A DNA stretch of 64,000 bases from Psychroserpens sp. (lineage in GTDB: Bacteria > Bacteroidota > Bacteroidia > Flavobacteriales > Flavobacteriaceae): NCBI GenBank assembly GCA_017643165.1, contig JAEPNY010000002.1:350402-414401 (forward strand), in the 5' to 3' direction. Position numbers and translations under genes: made by a program. The notes under the pieces were generated by a model. It did no database searches and had not been told where the DNA came from. It saw only the letters and a list, made by a program, of their open reading frames with translations. Shown here one piece after another: positions 7,992 to 13,395 of this stretch. Within the stretch, counting starts at the first letter, position 1. Each line of letters starts with the position of its first letter.

Positions 7992-8441
7992 ATGCTTACT
8001 GAAACTCTAATTGCGTTCTTTGATCGAGATCTTAATAATTTAAAAACCGAAATCTTGTCTTATACTGATGAGAATGATCTATGGCTTACCTCACATGATA
8101 TTTCAAATTCTGCCGGTAATTTAAGTTTACATATTGTTGGAAATCTCAATCATTTTGTTGGGGCAGTAATTGGAAAAACAGGCTATATTCGACAACGTGA
8201 TCTCGAATTTAGCCAAAAACATGTCCCTCGAGAAGAATTGATAAAACAGATCGATGATACTTTTGAAATGCTTACATCAGTTATTTCAAACTTGACGGTG
8301 GAGCAATTGGATAGTGAATATCCAAAACAGGTTTTTGGTAAGCCAATGCGTACGGAATATTTTTTAATCCATTTATGCACACATTTGACATATCATTTAG
8401 GTCAAATAAATTATCATAGACGCTTATTGATCAATGATTAA
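7992..8441 (+). CDS. DinB/YfiT-like four-helix protein
   Basis: 149 residues, cytoplasmic, mostly helical. Histidines in LSLHIVGNLNH and in LTYHLGQINYH match the positions of the metal-binding triad of the DinB superfamily (DUF1572-like group). Such proteins often use metal and small thiols in transfer reactions, but no activity can be assigned. The ATG at 7992 is the only sensible start; the gene appears to be transcribed alone. Confidence 0.65.
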   Translation: MLTETLIAFFDRDLNNLKTEILSYTDENDLWLTSHDISNSAGNLSLHIVGNLNHFVGAVIGKTGYIRQRDLEFSQKHVPREELIKQIDDTFEMLTSVISNLTVEQLDSEYPKQVFGKPMRTEYFLIHLCTHLTYHLGQINYHRRLLIND

Positions 8442-8505: not shown

Positions 8506-9009
8506 ATGAAATCAACTATTTTAAAACTATTATTAAGCCTAATCGTTGTATTGGCGTGGTCGTGTAAACCAAAATTTGATGCTGAATTACACAAAGAAAT
8601 TGCTGCTGAGCATGAGGCATTGGAGGCCGAACATGCCTCTATGGTTACTGCACATGAAGATCTTGAGAAAGCACATGCATCATGGGTTGCAGCACATGCC
8701 GCTCTTCCCGAAACAGATTCCTTACACTTGGAAGTGGAAGGAAAGCATACAGCACTTATTGAAAAACATCAAAAGTTAATGTTGGAGCACGAAGCATTAA
8801 TTAAAAAACATGCAGAGATTGAGGCTATGCATGAAACCGGCGAAATGTCTACAGAGGATGTTAAAGCTGAACATGAGGCGATAAAAAAAGAACATGAGCG
8901 TATGCAATCGGATCATGAAGCTATGGAAGGCGAACATGCTACTATGAAAAGTGATCATGAACAGATTATGACGGAACATGAGACATCTGAAGAAGAAAGT
9001 GAAGAATAA
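8506..9009 (+). CDS. Lipoprotein with strict histidine heptad repeats (novel)
   Basis: 167 residues: a lipoprotein signal with lipobox LAWSC (Cys20), then an all-helical, highly charged body. Every histidine lies on a seven-residue grid, in three blocks of six: 29, 36, 43, 50, 57, 64; 74, 81, 88, 95, 102, 109; 123, 130, 137, 144, 151, 158. Three residues after nearly every His is a hydrophobic residue (Ile, Leu, Met, Val or Trp), so His occupies position a and the hydrophobic residue position d of a coiled coil. Two breaks, at PETDS and TGEMSTED, would divide it into three equal helices. A membrane-anchored metal-binding or pH-sensing bundle is an inference; I recognise no named family. Confidence 0.7.
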   Translation: MKSTILKLLLSLIVVLAWSCKPKFDAELHKEIAAEHEALEAEHASMVTAHEDLEKAHASWVAAHAALPETDSLHLEVEGKHTALIEKHQKLMLEHEALIKKHAEIEAMHETGEMSTEDVKAEHEAIKKEHERMQSDHEAMEGEHATMKSDHEQIMTEHETSEEESEE

Positions 9010-9038
9010 AAAAAAGCCTGCTATTAGCAGGCTTTTTT
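9010..9038 (+). terminator. Intrinsic terminator of the His-heptad lipoprotein gene
   Basis: Stem AAGCCTGCT/AGCAGGCTT around loop ATT, extended by A6 and T6 tracts. The symmetric tracts would also allow termination from the other strand. Confidence 0.9.
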
Positions 9039-9119
9039 CAGCTAGAATTGTTTAAAGAAGACTGTTCTAGCCTTTAACTAACTAACGATTTACTCAAAAT
9101 CATTGTCTTCAATATTTTA

Positions 9120-9515
9120 TTAACAGCATTCATTTTCACACTGACAATATTTTCGATTATAAAGATGCAGTATTATCAAGGCTGTTGCAGGAAGATATAT
9201 AACCCATTCAGGTGAATGGATAAATTCTACTTTTTCATTTATAATGAATGCTGACAATAAAAACCAGCTCGCCCATAAAGCATGTTTAATCCATTGCTTT
9301 GAACTAAACTTCACGGACCAAAACACTGCAAAAAACGAAACGCCGATAAACAAAAAATCAATACTTTGCCACCAAGTAGGCGCTGTTTCACAACAACTGG
9401 CTGCACAGGTCTGAGCAACAAAAATAAACGGTGTTGCAATGCAATGCATCAAACATAATCCGCTAGCCAGTGCACCGATAGAATCTGAATTATTTGTATT
9501 ACTTAGTATTGCCAT
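9120..9515 (-). CDS. MerC-domain membrane protein
   Basis: 131 residues with four predicted membrane helices. The N-terminal helix carries the MerC pattern GLCLMHCIATPF, followed by paired Cys in ASCCE; the C-terminus ends in a Cys-rich tail (QCENECC). Classical MerC carries mercuric ion across the inner membrane; free-standing homologues in Bacteroidota have no proven substrate. Its start overlaps the end of the upstream permease by 17 bases, so it is the last gene of the ABC operon controlled from the Fur-family locus, which favours a metal role. Confidence 0.8.
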   Translation of the reverse strand: MAILSNTNNSDSIGALASGLCLMHCIATPFIFVAQTCAASCCETAPTWWQSIDFLFIGVSFFAVFWSVKFSSKQWIKHALWASWFLLSAFIINEKVEFIHSPEWVIYLPATALIILHLYNRKYCQCENECC

Positions 9516-10824
9516 TTAATTCTTCTAAATAATTTAAGAATCGATTTTTATCAACTGTTTCATCATTCCAAATATCCATTACCATTAATTCGACTTGTCG
9601 ATCAATACGTGTTTGTATGTTATTTCTGAATATTTGATAATCATCAAAATGCGTTTTAGTGGTCTGATTAAATCTGTTTTGAAAGAAAGTCACCGGATTA
9701 AACCAATAAGTTGCACTAATAGCTTTATTCTTGGCTTTGAAACTATCTTCGATAGGAACGATACTTGCTTTTGTCAATTCATTCGCTAAGGCAGAGGCAG
9801 ACCTATTTCTTGCATTTCCAATCTTTAGACTATCATTAATGACAACACTGTTTAAAATATCTGGAAACTGCTCATTCAGTTTTTGTTGAAAAATTTCGTC
9901 AGGTAAATCGTAAAGTTCATTCCTTTCGTCACGTTGCGAATCGATAAAATCGGTCATAAGGTTTGTAGGGTATGAGGTGCTGATCCATTGATGCACTGAC
10001 CCTGGGATAATAAACCCAAGAAGCAACCAAAGTCCGATCATTTTTAGAGTATTAGATACACTTGATTGACCGTATTGAATAATCAATCCAAACCCAATTA
10101 CCCAAATGAATAGATATACATTGATCCATAGCCAGTATAACCAAAAAGCTGACATATCTGAAGAAAAGACATCAGTAAGTGTTCCACCAATTAGTAATAG
10201 GATGAAGTTTACGATGATTATAATCAATGCATAGAATAGTAGTCTAGTCCAAACCCAAGATTTGATCGTTCCTGATTGAATCTTTATAAGCGATAAAATG
10301 CCACGATCATATTCTGTTCCTTTGATATTGTATAAGCATATAATTAACAACAAAGGCATTAGAAATAGAATGACGAATGTGAAATCCAATTGCCCAGAAT
10401 TTAAGCGTTCAGGATTAGCAATTTCTTCTGCCATGTCGGCATCATAAGGGCTACTCCACATTGTTACTTTCTTGTAGTATCCGTATTGTTCGGCTTGTCC
10501 AATACCATAAACCATTAGTTTTGATGGTTCTTTAAAACTATATTGTGAGGCATACCAAATTGCCCAAAATGGCGTAGTAACATCTACCCAAGGCCTACTT
10601 TCAGGACCTTTTTGATTATTATCATAGTATGCAATTACTGATTCTAAGTCTTCCGATGATTGTGTAGTTATTCGATCAATTTCATCAATCTGCTTATGAT
10701 AAAGTTTAGAACCATTGTTAATACCATATGCAGCGGCAAGCATGAACAATAAAATCGCAATTAATTTAAATGGATTTCTAATAAAATGTATCCATTCAAA
10801 TTTTAGAATCATTAAAATTTTCAT
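9499..10824 (-). CDS. ABC-2 type permease, DUF3526-like (second subunit)
   Basis: 441 residues. TM1 follows a short cytoplasmic start, then comes a large extracytoplasmic region (about 45-135), several helices (about 145-280), a second soluble stretch and no final helix that I can make out. The architecture and its pairing with the neighbour fit DUF3526-type ABC permeases. Its ATG overlaps the stop of the preceding permease (ATGA), indicating translational coupling. Substrate unknown; the metal-type regulator and MerC partner suggest a metal or metal complex (inference). Confidence 0.7.
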   Translation of the reverse strand: MKILMILKFEWIHFIRNPFKLIAILLFMLAAAYGINNGSKLYHKQIDEIDRITTQSSEDLESVIAYYDNNQKGPESRPWVDVTTPFWAIWYASQYSFKEPSKLMVYGIGQAEQYGYYKKVTMWSSPYDADMAEEIANPERLNSGQLDFTFVILFLMPLLLIICLYNIKGTEYDRGILSLIKIQSGTIKSWVWTRLLFYALIIIIVNFILLLIGGTLTDVFSSDMSAFWLYWLWINVYLFIWVIGFGLIIQYGQSSVSNTLKMIGLWLLLGFIIPGSVHQWISTSYPTNLMTDFIDSQRDERNELYDLPDEIFQQKLNEQFPDILNSVVINDSLKIGNARNRSASALANELTKASIVPIEDSFKAKNKAISATYWFNPVTFFQNRFNQTTKTHFDDYQIFRNNIQTRIDRQVELMVMDIWNDETVDKNRFLNYLEELNGNTK

Positions 10825-12230
10825 GTCATTGCAATTTTATTGGTTCCAAAAATAATCAGGACTATTACTATTCCAGTCCAAAGTATTAAAAGGCATATAT
10901 CTAATAGGTAATGCTTCAAAACTGTCTTGAACATGATAGGTTGATAGTCAAAGTCGGCTACTGATTTAAAGAAATCATTATTGGCTTTCCAACCCCAATC
11001 GCCAGTTTTTGATCCACCATAGGCATGTTCATCGTTAAGTGCTTTGATGAAAACACGACGATAGTCTTCCACTTGTCTCAAAAACATTTGATGATGTAAA
11101 TTGTCACTACCCGCTAGACCAATACTGGCATTCTGTAGAGATGTAAATGGATTAATAATACCGAAATATTGAACGGTATTTTTTTGATCCTGTAGGATGT
11201 CGTTTAAGTTGCCAAAATGTTTATCCCATACGAGGTTACCATATTCTTCATCTTCCTGCATACGTATACCATCGAAATTTATTGGTAATTGTGATAAGCT
11301 ATCGACACCATATTCGGATAATACTTTCGTTTCGAGGGCTTTTCCACGCTCATCTGAAGGATTATGACCATCAATTCCTTTCGAACGGTCTTCGCTCATG
11401 GCAGATTTGAAGGCATTACGACTTGGCAGGGGATGCCAGTCTTCTACGCTGCTCAGCACCATACTAGGTATAAAAACTGTCCATAACATCCATATACCAA
11501 TCATACTAGTAAGTGCAATTGCAGTTTTATTGATTCTAGCCGATAAAAAGATGGTTAAGCCGATAATGATAAAATAATACAAGCTATAGCTCACAAAGAA
11601 TAATACGAGTCGGAGTAACAAATCACTTGAGAGGTTGGATGTACTAAAAATTAAATAAACTAACAAAGTGATAATGAGTAAAATGTTGCTGTACAACCAA
11701 ATGGCAAGTGCCTTTGAGAACATTATGCGATTTGGACTAATACCTTGAAGAACGATTAGCTTTAATCTGTCATTTTGTTTTTCTGAATATACAGATGCAA
11801 AAGCAGAAAAAATTAAAAGCAGTGGTATTATATATTGAAAAATTAGTGAGGCTTTTAGTTTACCAAATTTTGACGTAAACATCATTTGTGAAGCTTCAGA
11901 ATGTACCATTTCATTTTGGACATGGCCTTCAACACGTAAAACATTTCCCGTAATACTATTAACGCCCTCATCGAGGTGCGTTAATAGATTAGCAGGCTTA
12001 AACACATAAGTTCCATAATGTGCAGCACTATGAGGATTCATAGCATCAATATTTTCCCATTGCGCTCTTAATTCATTTTTAGCGGAGTTGAAGGAGTCAT
12101 ACTGTACATTATATTGTTTATGCGAAAGAAAAATAGCGACTATTACGACTATCATAAAACCACACATAATCCCGAATTGTGTCTTATTTCTATATAATAA
12201 TCGCCATTCATTTATTATAATTCGTTTCAT
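10821..12230 (-). CDS. ABC-2 type permease, DUF3526-like (first subunit)
   Basis: 469 residues. Layout: TM1 at about 20-35, a long extracytoplasmic domain to about 145, a cluster of helices (about 150-275), a second large soluble domain (about 280-430) with an HHQMFLRQVEDYRR segment typical of DUF3526 permeases, and a final helix. It lies five bases after the ATPase gene and overlaps the next permease by four, so the three act as one transporter. The direction of transport is not shown by the sequence. Confidence 0.72.
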   Translation of the reverse strand: MKRIIINEWRLLYRNKTQFGIMCGFMIVVIVAIFLSHKQYNVQYDSFNSAKNELRAQWENIDAMNPHSAAHYGTYVFKPANLLTHLDEGVNSITGNVLRVEGHVQNEMVHSEASQMMFTSKFGKLKASLIFQYIIPLLLIFSAFASVYSEKQNDRLKLIVLQGISPNRIMFSKALAIWLYSNILLIITLLVYLIFSTSNLSSDLLLRLVLFFVSYSLYYFIIIGLTIFLSARINKTAIALTSMIGIWMLWTVFIPSMVLSSVEDWHPLPSRNAFKSAMSEDRSKGIDGHNPSDERGKALETKVLSEYGVDSLSQLPINFDGIRMQEDEEYGNLVWDKHFGNLNDILQDQKNTVQYFGIINPFTSLQNASIGLAGSDNLHHQMFLRQVEDYRRVFIKALNDEHAYGGSKTGDWGWKANNDFFKSVADFDYQPIMFKTVLKHYLLDICLLILWTGIVIVLIIFGTNKIAMT

Positions 12231-12235
12231 TGTCC

Positions 12236-12937
12236 CTAATTTTTCATGTATTGAAGGTATAAGGACTCTAGCTCATTTGCACTAACATCATTACTGTTTA
12301 GTGTCTTTACTAGTCTACCTTGTTTTAAAATGCCTATTCTATTGCACACTTCTCTTACGCGAAATATATCATGAGAAGCCATCAATATACTTGTTCCATT
12401 AGACGCCAACTGCTTTAGCAGAACAGAAAGCTCATTACTTGCCAAGGGATCGAGGCCGCTCGCAGGTTCATCTAATAGCAACACTTTTGCTTTTTTTGCA
12501 TAAGCTATTGCTATACCAACCTTTTGGCGCATTCCCTTAGAATAGGTTGAGATTTTTCTATGATGTGAATCTTTGTCTAAACCACATGTTTCAAGAATGT
12601 CTTGTAATTCTGGCTTGCTGTATTTTAAACCAGCTAACAAACAGAAGTAGTTTAAGTTCTCGATTCCAGTTAAATAATTATATAAGTTTACATTTTCAGG
12701 AATATAGCCTATAAATTGTCTTGAATATTCAGGACTTTTATCTACGTCAATGTCATGTACCGTAATTTTCCCTGAATCCGGCTTGATAAGTCCTAATATC
12801 ATGTTGATGGTGGTGGATTTTCCAGCACCATTCGCACCAAGCAATCCTAATATTTCTCCAGAATCTACGTTTAGATTGAGATTATCAACAGCAGTTTGAT
12901 CTTTATAAGATTTGGATATATTTTGTAGTGTAATCAT
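12236..12937 (-). CDS. ABC transporter ATP-binding protein
   Basis: Cytoplasmic ATPase driving the two permeases downstream. Walker A GANGAGKST (34-42), a short signature YSKGMRQK (132-139) and Walker B VLLLDEP (152-158), followed by the D-loop SGLDP, are all intact. The frame extends upstream to a start at 12964, but that longer version would translate through the palindromic operator at 12949-12963; ATG 12937 gives a normal MITLQNISKSY start and 233 residues. It is the first gene of a four-gene operon ending in merC. Confidence 0.9.
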   Translation of the reverse strand: MITLQNISKSYKDQTAVDNLNLNVDSGEILGLLGANGAGKSTTINMILGLIKPDSGKITVHDIDVDKSPEYSRQFIGYIPENVNLYNYLTGIENLNYFCLLAGLKYSKPELQDILETCGLDKDSHHRKISTYSKGMRQKVGIAIAYAKKAKVLLLDEPASGLDPLASNELSVLLKQLASNGTSILMASHDIFRVREVCNRIGILKQGRLVKTLNSNDVSANELESLYLQYMKN

Positions 12938-12948
12938 GATATTATTAA

Positions 12949-12963
12949 TGCAACTTAGTTGCA
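12949..12963. promoter_or_regulatory. Palindromic operator 1 (TGCAACT-T-AGTTGCA), likely Fur/Zur-family site
   Basis: Perfect 7-1-7 palindrome 12 bases upstream of the ATPase start. It overlaps the end of a minus-strand TATTTTTG -7 box (12962-12969) and the expected transcription start, a position suited to repression of the ABC/merC operon. A related palindrome lies 24 bases away on the regulator side. Confidence 0.7.
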
Positions 12964-12969
12964 AAAATA
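12962..12969 (-). promoter_or_regulatory. -7 box (TATTTTTG) of the ABC/MerC operon
   Basis: Minus-strand match to TAnnTTTG, with a TTG on the same strand about 19 bases upstream (plus-strand CAA at 12989-12991). It sits between the two palindromes; the leader to ATG 12937 would be about 20 bases. Confidence 0.5.
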
Positions 12970-12978
12970 TAAATTAAT

Positions 12979-13010
12979 TTTGATAATGCAATTAAGTTGC
13001 ATTAAATTTG
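12979..13010 (+). promoter_or_regulatory. Promoter and operator 2 of the Fur-family regulator gene
   Basis: TTTG (12979-12982), a 20-base spacer and TAAATTTG (13003-13010) match the Bacteroidota promoter. The spacer is almost filled by a 19-base palindrome AATGCAA-TTAAG-TTGCATT (12985-13003), so a bound regulator would exclude RNA polymerase: autoregulation. The -7 box ends four bases before ATG 13015, implying a leaderless message. Confidence 0.65.
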
Positions 13011-13014
13011 TACT

Positions 13015-13395
13015 ATGAGTGTTGTAAGAAAAACAAAGTCCGTAAAGACCTTAATGTCAATTTTTGAAGCCAGTGGTTCTGCTTTATCAGTAGTAGATCT
13101 CGTTGAGCAGCTAAAAGTGCAAATGAATAAAACAACAGTGTATCGCATATTAGAACGCTTGGAAGGTGAGGGGACTATTCATTCGTTTATTGGATCAAAT
13201 GGCTTAAAGTGGTATGCAAAATGCTCGACTTGCACGAAACATGAGCACGATGATGTGCATCCACATTTTGAATGTCGGGATTGTGGAAAAGTAGAATGTT
13301 TAGAAATAGAGGTTACCATTCCCAAACTAAAAAACCGTCTTATTGAATCAGCAGACGTGTTACTTACTGGACAATGTGCAGATTGTTTGAATTAA
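13015..13395 (+). CDS. Fur/Zur-family metal-dependent transcriptional regulator
   Basis: 126 residues. N-terminal winged helix with the recognition-helix pattern NKTTVYRILERLEGEG (38-53). The C-terminal metal-binding half has Cys70/Cys73, a His-rich stretch (His76, 78, 82, 84), Cys87/Cys90 and Cys121/Cys124; CxxC pairs are the structural zinc site of the Fur superfamily. It diverges from the ABC/MerC operon with two matching palindromes between, and most likely represses both itself and that operon. Whether it senses zinc, iron or another metal cannot be read from the sequence; the short, Cys/His-rich C-terminus makes Zur-like the best guess. Confidence 0.85.
   Translation: MSVVRKTKSVKTLMSIFEASGSALSVVDLVEQLKVQMNKTTVYRILERLEGEGTIHSFIGSNGLKWYAKCSTCTKHEHDDVHPHFECRDCGKVECLEIEVTIPKLKNRLIESADVLLTGQCADCLN

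Follow-up and report, generated by a model that had tools for sequence, protein, structure and literature searches.

What might a bacterial lipoprotein do with eighteen histidines (His), all of them lying in runs of exact seven-residue spacing? The question is raised by a gene found within a 64,000-nucleotide stretch of Psychroserpens sp. DNA (contig JAEPNY010000002.1, positions 350,402 to 414,401; here ‘the window’, i.e., the whole stretch analysed, from the first letter of which all coordinates below are counted). The answer to which we give about an even chance is that its product is a lipid-anchored metal buffer and relay of the cell envelope, one that handles zinc or a related metal by means of stacked three-histidine (His3) sites. 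That metal is held at all we infer from conservation, from fold prediction, and from the company which the gene keeps.

The histidine grid

The gene and the beginning of its product are as follows.

8506..9009, plus strand: His-grid lipoprotein gene, an open reading frame of 167 codons (167 amino acids)
8506..8562, plus strand: signal peptide, residues 1-19, as read from the sequence
8563-8565, plus strand: Cys20, expected to be lipidated, and invariant in a 26-row alignment (A1)

All 18 His of the protein fall into three runs of six, at residues 29, 36, 43, 50, 57, and 64, at 74, 81, 88, 95, 102, and 109, and at 123, 130, 137, 144, 151, and 158. The spacing is seven throughout each run, with gaps of 10 and 14 separating the runs. 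This amounts to 15 His pairs at +7, versus a mean of 2.0 and a maximum of 8 among 100,000 shuffles of residues 21-167. A first-pass annotation, made from the sequence alone, had described both this exact grid and a hydrophobic residue three positions after His in nearly every repeat, and both descriptions hold, with the +3 residues being I, L, M, L, W, L in the first run, V, L, L, L, I, G in the second, and I, M, M, M, I, S in the third. HxxM and MxxxH motifs each occur four times. The lipobox that the annotation reported is present as well, with Cys20 following a hydrophobic leader, though it is a loose lipobox (A, W, and S at -3, -2, and -1).

Following the lipid Cys the window protein reads CKPKFD, versus an acidic stretch (CDDKKK, CGDDEK, CDDQKA) in a short subfamily consisting of loci L003, L004, L018, L019, and L020. 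That stretch is reminiscent of what we take to be the surface-lipoprotein export signal of Bacteroidota. Loci L042 and L044, which are of another class, possess a leader without a clear lipobox Cys and perhaps represent free periplasmic forms.

Conservation and distribution of the family

Judged from sequence comparison, the His-grid lipoprotein is an unnamed, conserved family of Bacteroidota. Conservation was assessed over 80 rows, i.e., 86 sequences less six duplicates, as well as over a 73-row set without the distant L045-L049, L051, and L052. Identity to the window residue, across the 73 rows (window included), is 82% in His columns versus 28% in other mature columns, and is 80% versus 28% once the seven most distant rows are added. 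That is, the spacing of the histidines is conserved while other positions vary, just as the first-pass annotation had proposed looking for. His88 is His in 80 of 80 rows, the nine columns of lowest entropy all belong to His, with every d column of the heptad ranking behind them, and 16 of the 28 columns that are invariant after Cys20 in a six-row close set are His. Across the 80 proteins, which carry from 7 to 20 His apiece, a second His stands either 7 or 14 residues from 1144 of the 1176 His in the mature chains.

The annotation's remark that no named family has this design stands for the window protein and for 15 other members. The window protein's Pfam matches are of 10.9-11.9 bits (cut-offs of 28.1-30) and its NCBIfam matches of 9.6-10.5 bits (cut-offs of 70 or more), none thus being over cut-off, and it has no PDB sequence match at E<=1. 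For the 15 members inspected singly in NCBIfam every match shown was below cut-off, while the remaining members were judged from match counts and best E-values. Two models of other small coiled-coil lipoproteins are matched weakly within the 26-member set: the SA0632 family lipoprotein (NF047408) by 17 members, the best of which (L004) differs in reaching 42.5 bits versus a 70-bit cut-off and over residues 1-64 only; and the Lpp/OprI alanine-zipper lipoprotein (NF040598) by 7 members, with a best E of 2e-5. The window protein matches neither of these at E<=1.

Of 397 host-family genomes searched, 29 gave a match, and 22 of these have clear members; L029, with three stops in its match, and L030 are not counted among the 22. 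A profile search of 395 genomes of the phylum matched 57 at E<=0.001, with 19 possessing a row at E<=1.5e-14, which was the threshold for membership there. Scanning named genomes yielded 48 loci, of which 26 are from Aquimarina, with Winogradskyella, Tenacibaculum, Dokdonia, Spongiivirga, Aureisphaera, Algoriphagus, Fulvivirga, Mangrovivirga, Saprospiraceae, and other bins making up the other hosts, and with W. tangerina (57%) and W. aurantiaca (55%) being nearest. Distribution is patchy, members being found in just one (G022) of 22 other genomes belonging to the window's genus, as three copies of the shorter type.

Candidates also were set aside. L025, L026, L028, L031, and L032 were dropped as low-complexity or OmpA-like proteins, neither L054 nor L056, which are weaker phylum matches (above E 1.5e-14), was a clear member on inspection, and L050 was used in no later step.

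Certain members may be pointed to individually. The three G022 copies (L003, L005, and L006) are diverged, with L003 and L006 lying within 10 kb of separate MerC genes. A full-length member, L144 (6693-7211), is found on Persicobacter plasmid CP012861, an unannotated 632-kb replicon. L128, of Mangrovivirga halotolerans, carries a natural deletion in helix 1, which is thereby left with four grid His where helices 2 and 3 have six apiece, the grid itself being preserved.

Predicted fold and three-histidine layers

AlphaFold2 models, as read by DSSP, predict three helices, each of which carries one run of six.

8581..8700, plus strand: predicted helix 1, residues 26-65, with His 29, 36, 43, 50, 57, and 64
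8719..8838, plus strand: predicted helix 2, residues 72-111, with His 74, 81, 88, 95, 102, and 109
8851..9003, plus strand: predicted helix 3, residues 116-166, with His 123, 130, 137, 144, 151, and 158

With the 26-row alignment, the mean predicted local distance difference test score (pLDDT) is 92.7 and the predicted template modelling score (pTM) is 0.77; the mature chain with 59 rows gives the same three helices, at 89.8 and 0.78. The first-pass annotation had suggested three helices of equal length, and three there are in the monomer model, though equal only roughly (40, 40, and 51 residues). As the predicted loops between helices consist of just 6 and 4 residues, and as PDB matches are helical bundles and coils, the model suggests an up-down-up packing of the three helices within one chain. 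One chain by itself provides the three helices, and no trimer need be invoked.

The annotation's placing of His at a and of hydrophobic residues at d holds family-wide, with hydrophobic fractions over the 73 rows of 85% at d, 38% at e, and 4-8% at b, c, f, and g. Hydrophobic moments, computed for each helix without His, deviate from the direction of the histidines by -39, -3, and -37 degrees, and because they point so near to it the histidines appear to be on the buried face. Burial within the bundle core is suggested by hydrophobic moment together with the pattern of substitutions.

Antiparallel pairing, with residue sums of 138 between helices 1 and 2 and of 232 between helices 2 and 3, matches all six His levels, so that the six stacked three-His layers which had been imagined by the annotation do fit a single antiparallel chain. 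As modelled there would be up to six such layers, with hydrophobic layers between. Counts were made on the stiffer 73-row alignment, as the gapped 80-row one puts the short subfamily's helix 1 out of register by one heptad. Layer (29,109,123) is His-His-His in 50 rows, all hydrophobic in 15, and otherwise in 8; (36,102,130) is His-His-His in 57 and otherwise in 16; (43,95,137) in 67, otherwise in 6; and (50,88,144) in 69, otherwise in 4. Layer (57,81,151) is His-His-Asp in 38, His-His-His in 28, and otherwise in 7, while (64,74,158) is His-His-Asp/Glu in 36, His-His-His in 16, all hydrophobic in 15, and otherwise in 6. The contrary case that the annotation had raised, of homologues keeping the helix while losing the His, is seen in part, as there are members with 7-10 His and the most distant group has lost several; it is seldom seen in the two inner layers of the 73 closer rows, as the counts just given show.

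In the short subfamily both end layers are hydrophobic; in the Aquimarina/Tenacibaculum group two layers are His-His-Asp, two histidines plus one carboxylate being a common metal ligand set. Substitutions of these kinds are as would be expected of core positions. On the tree, all-hydrophobic ends are confined to one clade and His-His-Asp mainly to one clade, with L043 apart.

In antiparallel bundles a often lies opposite d, and the three His of one layer therefore could be offset from one another by roughly half a heptad. Across 14 ideal-bundle settings with hand-set helix orientations, the closest His C-beta atoms of different helices are 5.3-12.2 A apart, with medians of 8.6-9.7. Metal-sharing His pairs reach by estimate about 9-10 A, and several of these settings thus would allow shared sites, though some would not do so for every pair.

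Gene neighbourhoods

At 76 loci (81 less five duplicates, and with the Persicobacter locus not included) we compared neighbourhoods spanning about 16 kb, contig ends having made some of them shorter. At least one of four zinc-linked genes is present in 34 of the 76, with two or more kinds in 20: a Fur/Zur-like regulator in 25, a ZigA-like gene in 17, MerC in 13, and FolE in 7. The window locus itself has the Zur-like regulator along with MerC. Haas 2009 (PMC2770081) links shortage of zinc to COG0523 and FolE paralogues under Zur control. In 16 neighbourhoods, all from Aquimarina, the regulator gene lies next to the member and divergent from it, at a distance of 76-331 bases, and these regulators are only 32-35% identical to that of the window.

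A distance test was made over 31 member genomes (leaving out, for example, G393, G660, G695, G733, and G809). Seven of 19 MerC genes are within 10 kb of a member, versus 0.12 expected (binomial 2e-11), as are 4 of the best 12 of 35 ZigA-like rows, versus 0.08 expected (1e-6), in both cases by a binomial that ignores kinship, counts G022 twice for MerC, and assumes one genome size of 3.8 Mb. Fur-family genes are found in all 31 genomes, at 1-6 each. We retain ‘ZigA-like’ as a label because the ZigA cut-off is exceeded in only 1 of the 31 and because 9 of 14 control genomes also have rows, under or over it. The ZigA-like gene of L066, for instance, scores 560.8 bits to NF038288, which has a cut-off of 600, while the FolE of that locus is over cut-off. 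In G698, related at the level of phylum only, a ZigA-like gene of 297.6 bits ends 44 bases upstream of the member and on the same strand. L044, as a separate observation, lies directly downstream of a ZigA-like gene.

The window operon and its palindromes

Features surrounding the lipoprotein gene are these.

7992..8441, plus strand: DinB/DUF1572 gene, 64 bases upstream of the lipoprotein gene (PF07609, E 1.4e-9)
9009..9039, listed on the minus strand: terminator-like hairpin separating the lipoprotein gene from the convergent MerC gene, the plus strand too having a G+C stem and then six T
9120..9515, minus strand: MerC family membrane protein (PF03203, E 5e-20)
9499..10824, minus strand: ABC-2-type permease 1 (ABC, ATP-binding cassette), which alone matches DUF3526 at only E 0.14 and which clusters by BLAST with permease 2
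10821..12230, minus strand: ABC-2/DUF3526 permease 2 (PF12040, E 2.4e-25)
12236..12964, minus strand: ABC ATPase (PF00005), the listed TTG start of which overlaps a palindrome, an internal ATG being likelier
12949..12963, no strand: perfect 7-1-7 palindrome TGCAACTTAGTTGCA, a candidate operator of the Fur/Zur-like regulator
12987..13001, no strand: second palindrome copy, with one mismatch
13015..13395, plus strand: Fur-superfamily regulator, divergent, Zur-like by association (PF01475, E 1.9e-9), with no NCBIfam equivalog over cut-off

The annotation had placed the lipoprotein gene 110 bases from a MerC/ABC/Fur-family operon. The distance is right (from 9009 to 9120), but as the MerC gene is convergent, with a terminator-like hairpin between, the lipoprotein gene is this operon's neighbour rather than its member. 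It may be co-transcribed with the DinB/DUF1572 gene, and a similar pair is seen in L096 (Winogradskyella tangerina).

The palindromes at 12949-13001 (TGCAACTNAGTTGCA) sit between the ABC ATPase gene and the Fur/Zur-like gene. In L064, L066, and L096 the regulator gene is preceded by the same box, which in L081, there with one mismatch, stands between MerC and ATPase; L066 has an imperfect palindrome pair upstream of its ZigA-like gene. Probably the palindrome serves as the regulator's operator in part of the Flavobacteriaceae. Among regulators tested, no NCBIfam Fur-type model reached cut-off, and ‘Zur-like’ consequently is a label by association. Combinations of MerC, ABC-2/DUF3526 permease, ATPase, Zur-like, ZigA-like, and FolE genes recur in the window (9120-13395) and in L066, L077, L081, L096, and L103, with DUF5916 proteins and unnamed lipoproteins recurring alongside. 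In its gene content the MerC/ABC/Zur-like/ZigA-like/FolE set looks like an uncharacterised zinc acquisition module.

What the core might do

How would an envelope metal buffer of this sort function? With three helices packed up-down-up in one chain, His at a and Leu, Ile, or Met at d would lie in the core, giving rise to up to six of the layers listed above, each separated from the next by a hydrophobic layer. Each could then hold one divalent ion by three imidazoles plus a water or anion, as does a single designed His3 layer. Several sites of modest affinity, on a membrane tether, would gather zinc in the envelope and pass it along when the metal is short. It is the gene neighbours that make zinc the likeliest metal, with copper, nickel, and cobalt also candidates. 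Possible, though in our view doubtful, is that the core is a metal column, i.e., a stack of six sites, His3 or 2-His-1-Asp, set at intervals of one heptad through the tethered single-chain bundle, with ions stored or passed from one site to another along its axis toward a membrane importer.

Parallels exist for various portions of this. Histidine-rich metal binders of the envelope are known. Excerpts of PMC13262294 describe a designed three-stranded coil with one His layer at a that binds Zn and Co. This coil, GRW-H and its relatives, resembles the window protein, as the latter is predicted, in having three helices, His at a, hydrophobic neighbours, and one His per helix per layer, but it is a parallel homotrimer with a single His layer, whereas the window protein is natural, one chain, seemingly antiparallel, of up to six layers, and lipid anchored. 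The pneumococcal Pht histidine-triad proteins differ from the His-grid lipoprotein in fold and in His motif. They do offer, according to portions of PMC3842936 on Pht and AdcAII, a surface protein that binds zinc and is encoded alongside a lipoprotein for zinc uptake. The metal-buffer reading has a good deal to contend with. None of the four zinc-linked genes occurs in 42 of the 76 neighbourhoods, most of the rows behind the ZigA-like label fall below the curated cut-off, Tenacibaculum copies adjoin genes which by eye resemble GrpE and DnaJ, and the Persicobacter plasmid copy is without any of the four in the 15 kb read. Upstream of 8506 there is no box at <=2 mismatches, the window's only two being those at 12949 and 12987, nor was any shared palindrome noticed in Aquimarina intergenic stretches. 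All counts are weighted toward Aquimarina, it supplying 26 of the 48 named loci, and, because they represent few events on the tree, layer changes alone cannot prove which residues are in contact. Lastly, Met is common at d (431 of 954 cells over the 73 rows), which keeps copper alive.

Rather than a metal buffer, might the protein be a pH switch? Buried His, neutral at ordinary pH, would in that case hold the bundle together by hydrogen bonds and protonate collectively at low pH, thereby opening it. Designed bundles of this type, derived from pRO-2 (PDB 8gl3 by title), have, as is proposed for the present core, several layers of three buried His, nine in all, and unfold at a tunable pH of 4.0-6.5, with each His paired with Asn and Thr, according to sections of PMC11286511. 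Such partners are rare in the His-grid family, where N, T, S, and Q together make up 3.0% of d and 11.2% of e cells (954 each), though this comparison is not strict, as the designs have outer helices to supply partners and Glu at g is a possible partner here. Layers that become His-His-Asp, in 38 and 35 of 73, furthermore amount to a set of ligands, not to a neutral network. No acid challenge is obvious for the marine genera to which most named hosts belong, and this we count against a pH switch as well. The rarity of N, T, S, and Q at d and e, along with Asp replacing His, favours metal, and we consider a pH switch to be unlikely.

A metal sponge more like SilE or PcoE would have His at a and Met at d forming HxxM motifs that fold around soft ions, copper or silver. 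It is a live rival because SilE-type HxxM motifs are so abundant, occurring 431 times in 73 members, including four in the window protein. Excerpts of PMC5008109 present SilE as carrying HxxMxxxHxxM motifs, becoming helical upon Ag binding, and also taking Cu, Zn, and Ni; SilE and PcoE are alike to the present family in being envelope proteins with His- and Met-containing helices and, as is proposed for the family, several ions per chain. They differ, per the same excerpts, in being disordered when empty, in motifs not set on one long heptad grid, and in belonging to silver/copper operons. The disorder of metal-free SilE contrasts with the helices predicted here, although prediction cannot separate apo from holo. 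With Met at 431, Leu at 277, and Ile at 160 of 954 d cells, Met furthermore seems to be one hydrophobic choice of three, and the informative neighbours point to zinc. No SilE/PcoE model was among the window protein's Pfam or NCBIfam matches at E<=1, these libraries not having been checked for such a model. We view a copper or silver sponge as rather unlikely.

The same bundle might instead store another metal, nickel, cobalt, or iron. His3 sites do take Co, and a six-locus neighbour cluster resembles, by eye, HupE/UreJ permeases, with no NCBIfam match for the one member tested; as the informative neighbours are a ZigA-like GTPase and FolE, however, such a store seems quite improbable. Least probable of these alternatives is that the protein is a structural spacer or envelope coiled coil, with His at a only setting helix number or oligomer state. 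Coiled-coil lipoproteins are common, and the weak matches to the Lpp-like NF040598 fit with this, but the most conserved columns of the mature protein, including all nine of lowest entropy in the 73 rows, are those of His. Histidine generally makes a poor core residue, moreover, if the protein has no use for it.

Implications

Within the open-access literature, the matches listed included no paper on the His-grid family or on a natural stacked His3 core, nor any account of how zinc is held or moved in the envelope of Bacteroidota. To our knowledge, the His3 coiled-coil site is known only from design. Were the metal column to be real, then nature will have both arrived at that site and multiplied it. 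With up to six predicted equivalent sites, as well as natural variants possessing 7-20 His, the relationship between layer number and metal capacity or affinity is directly testable in this family. The family would also be a natural counterpart to designed His3 coiled coils, and would represent a scaffold for metal- or pH-responsive materials.
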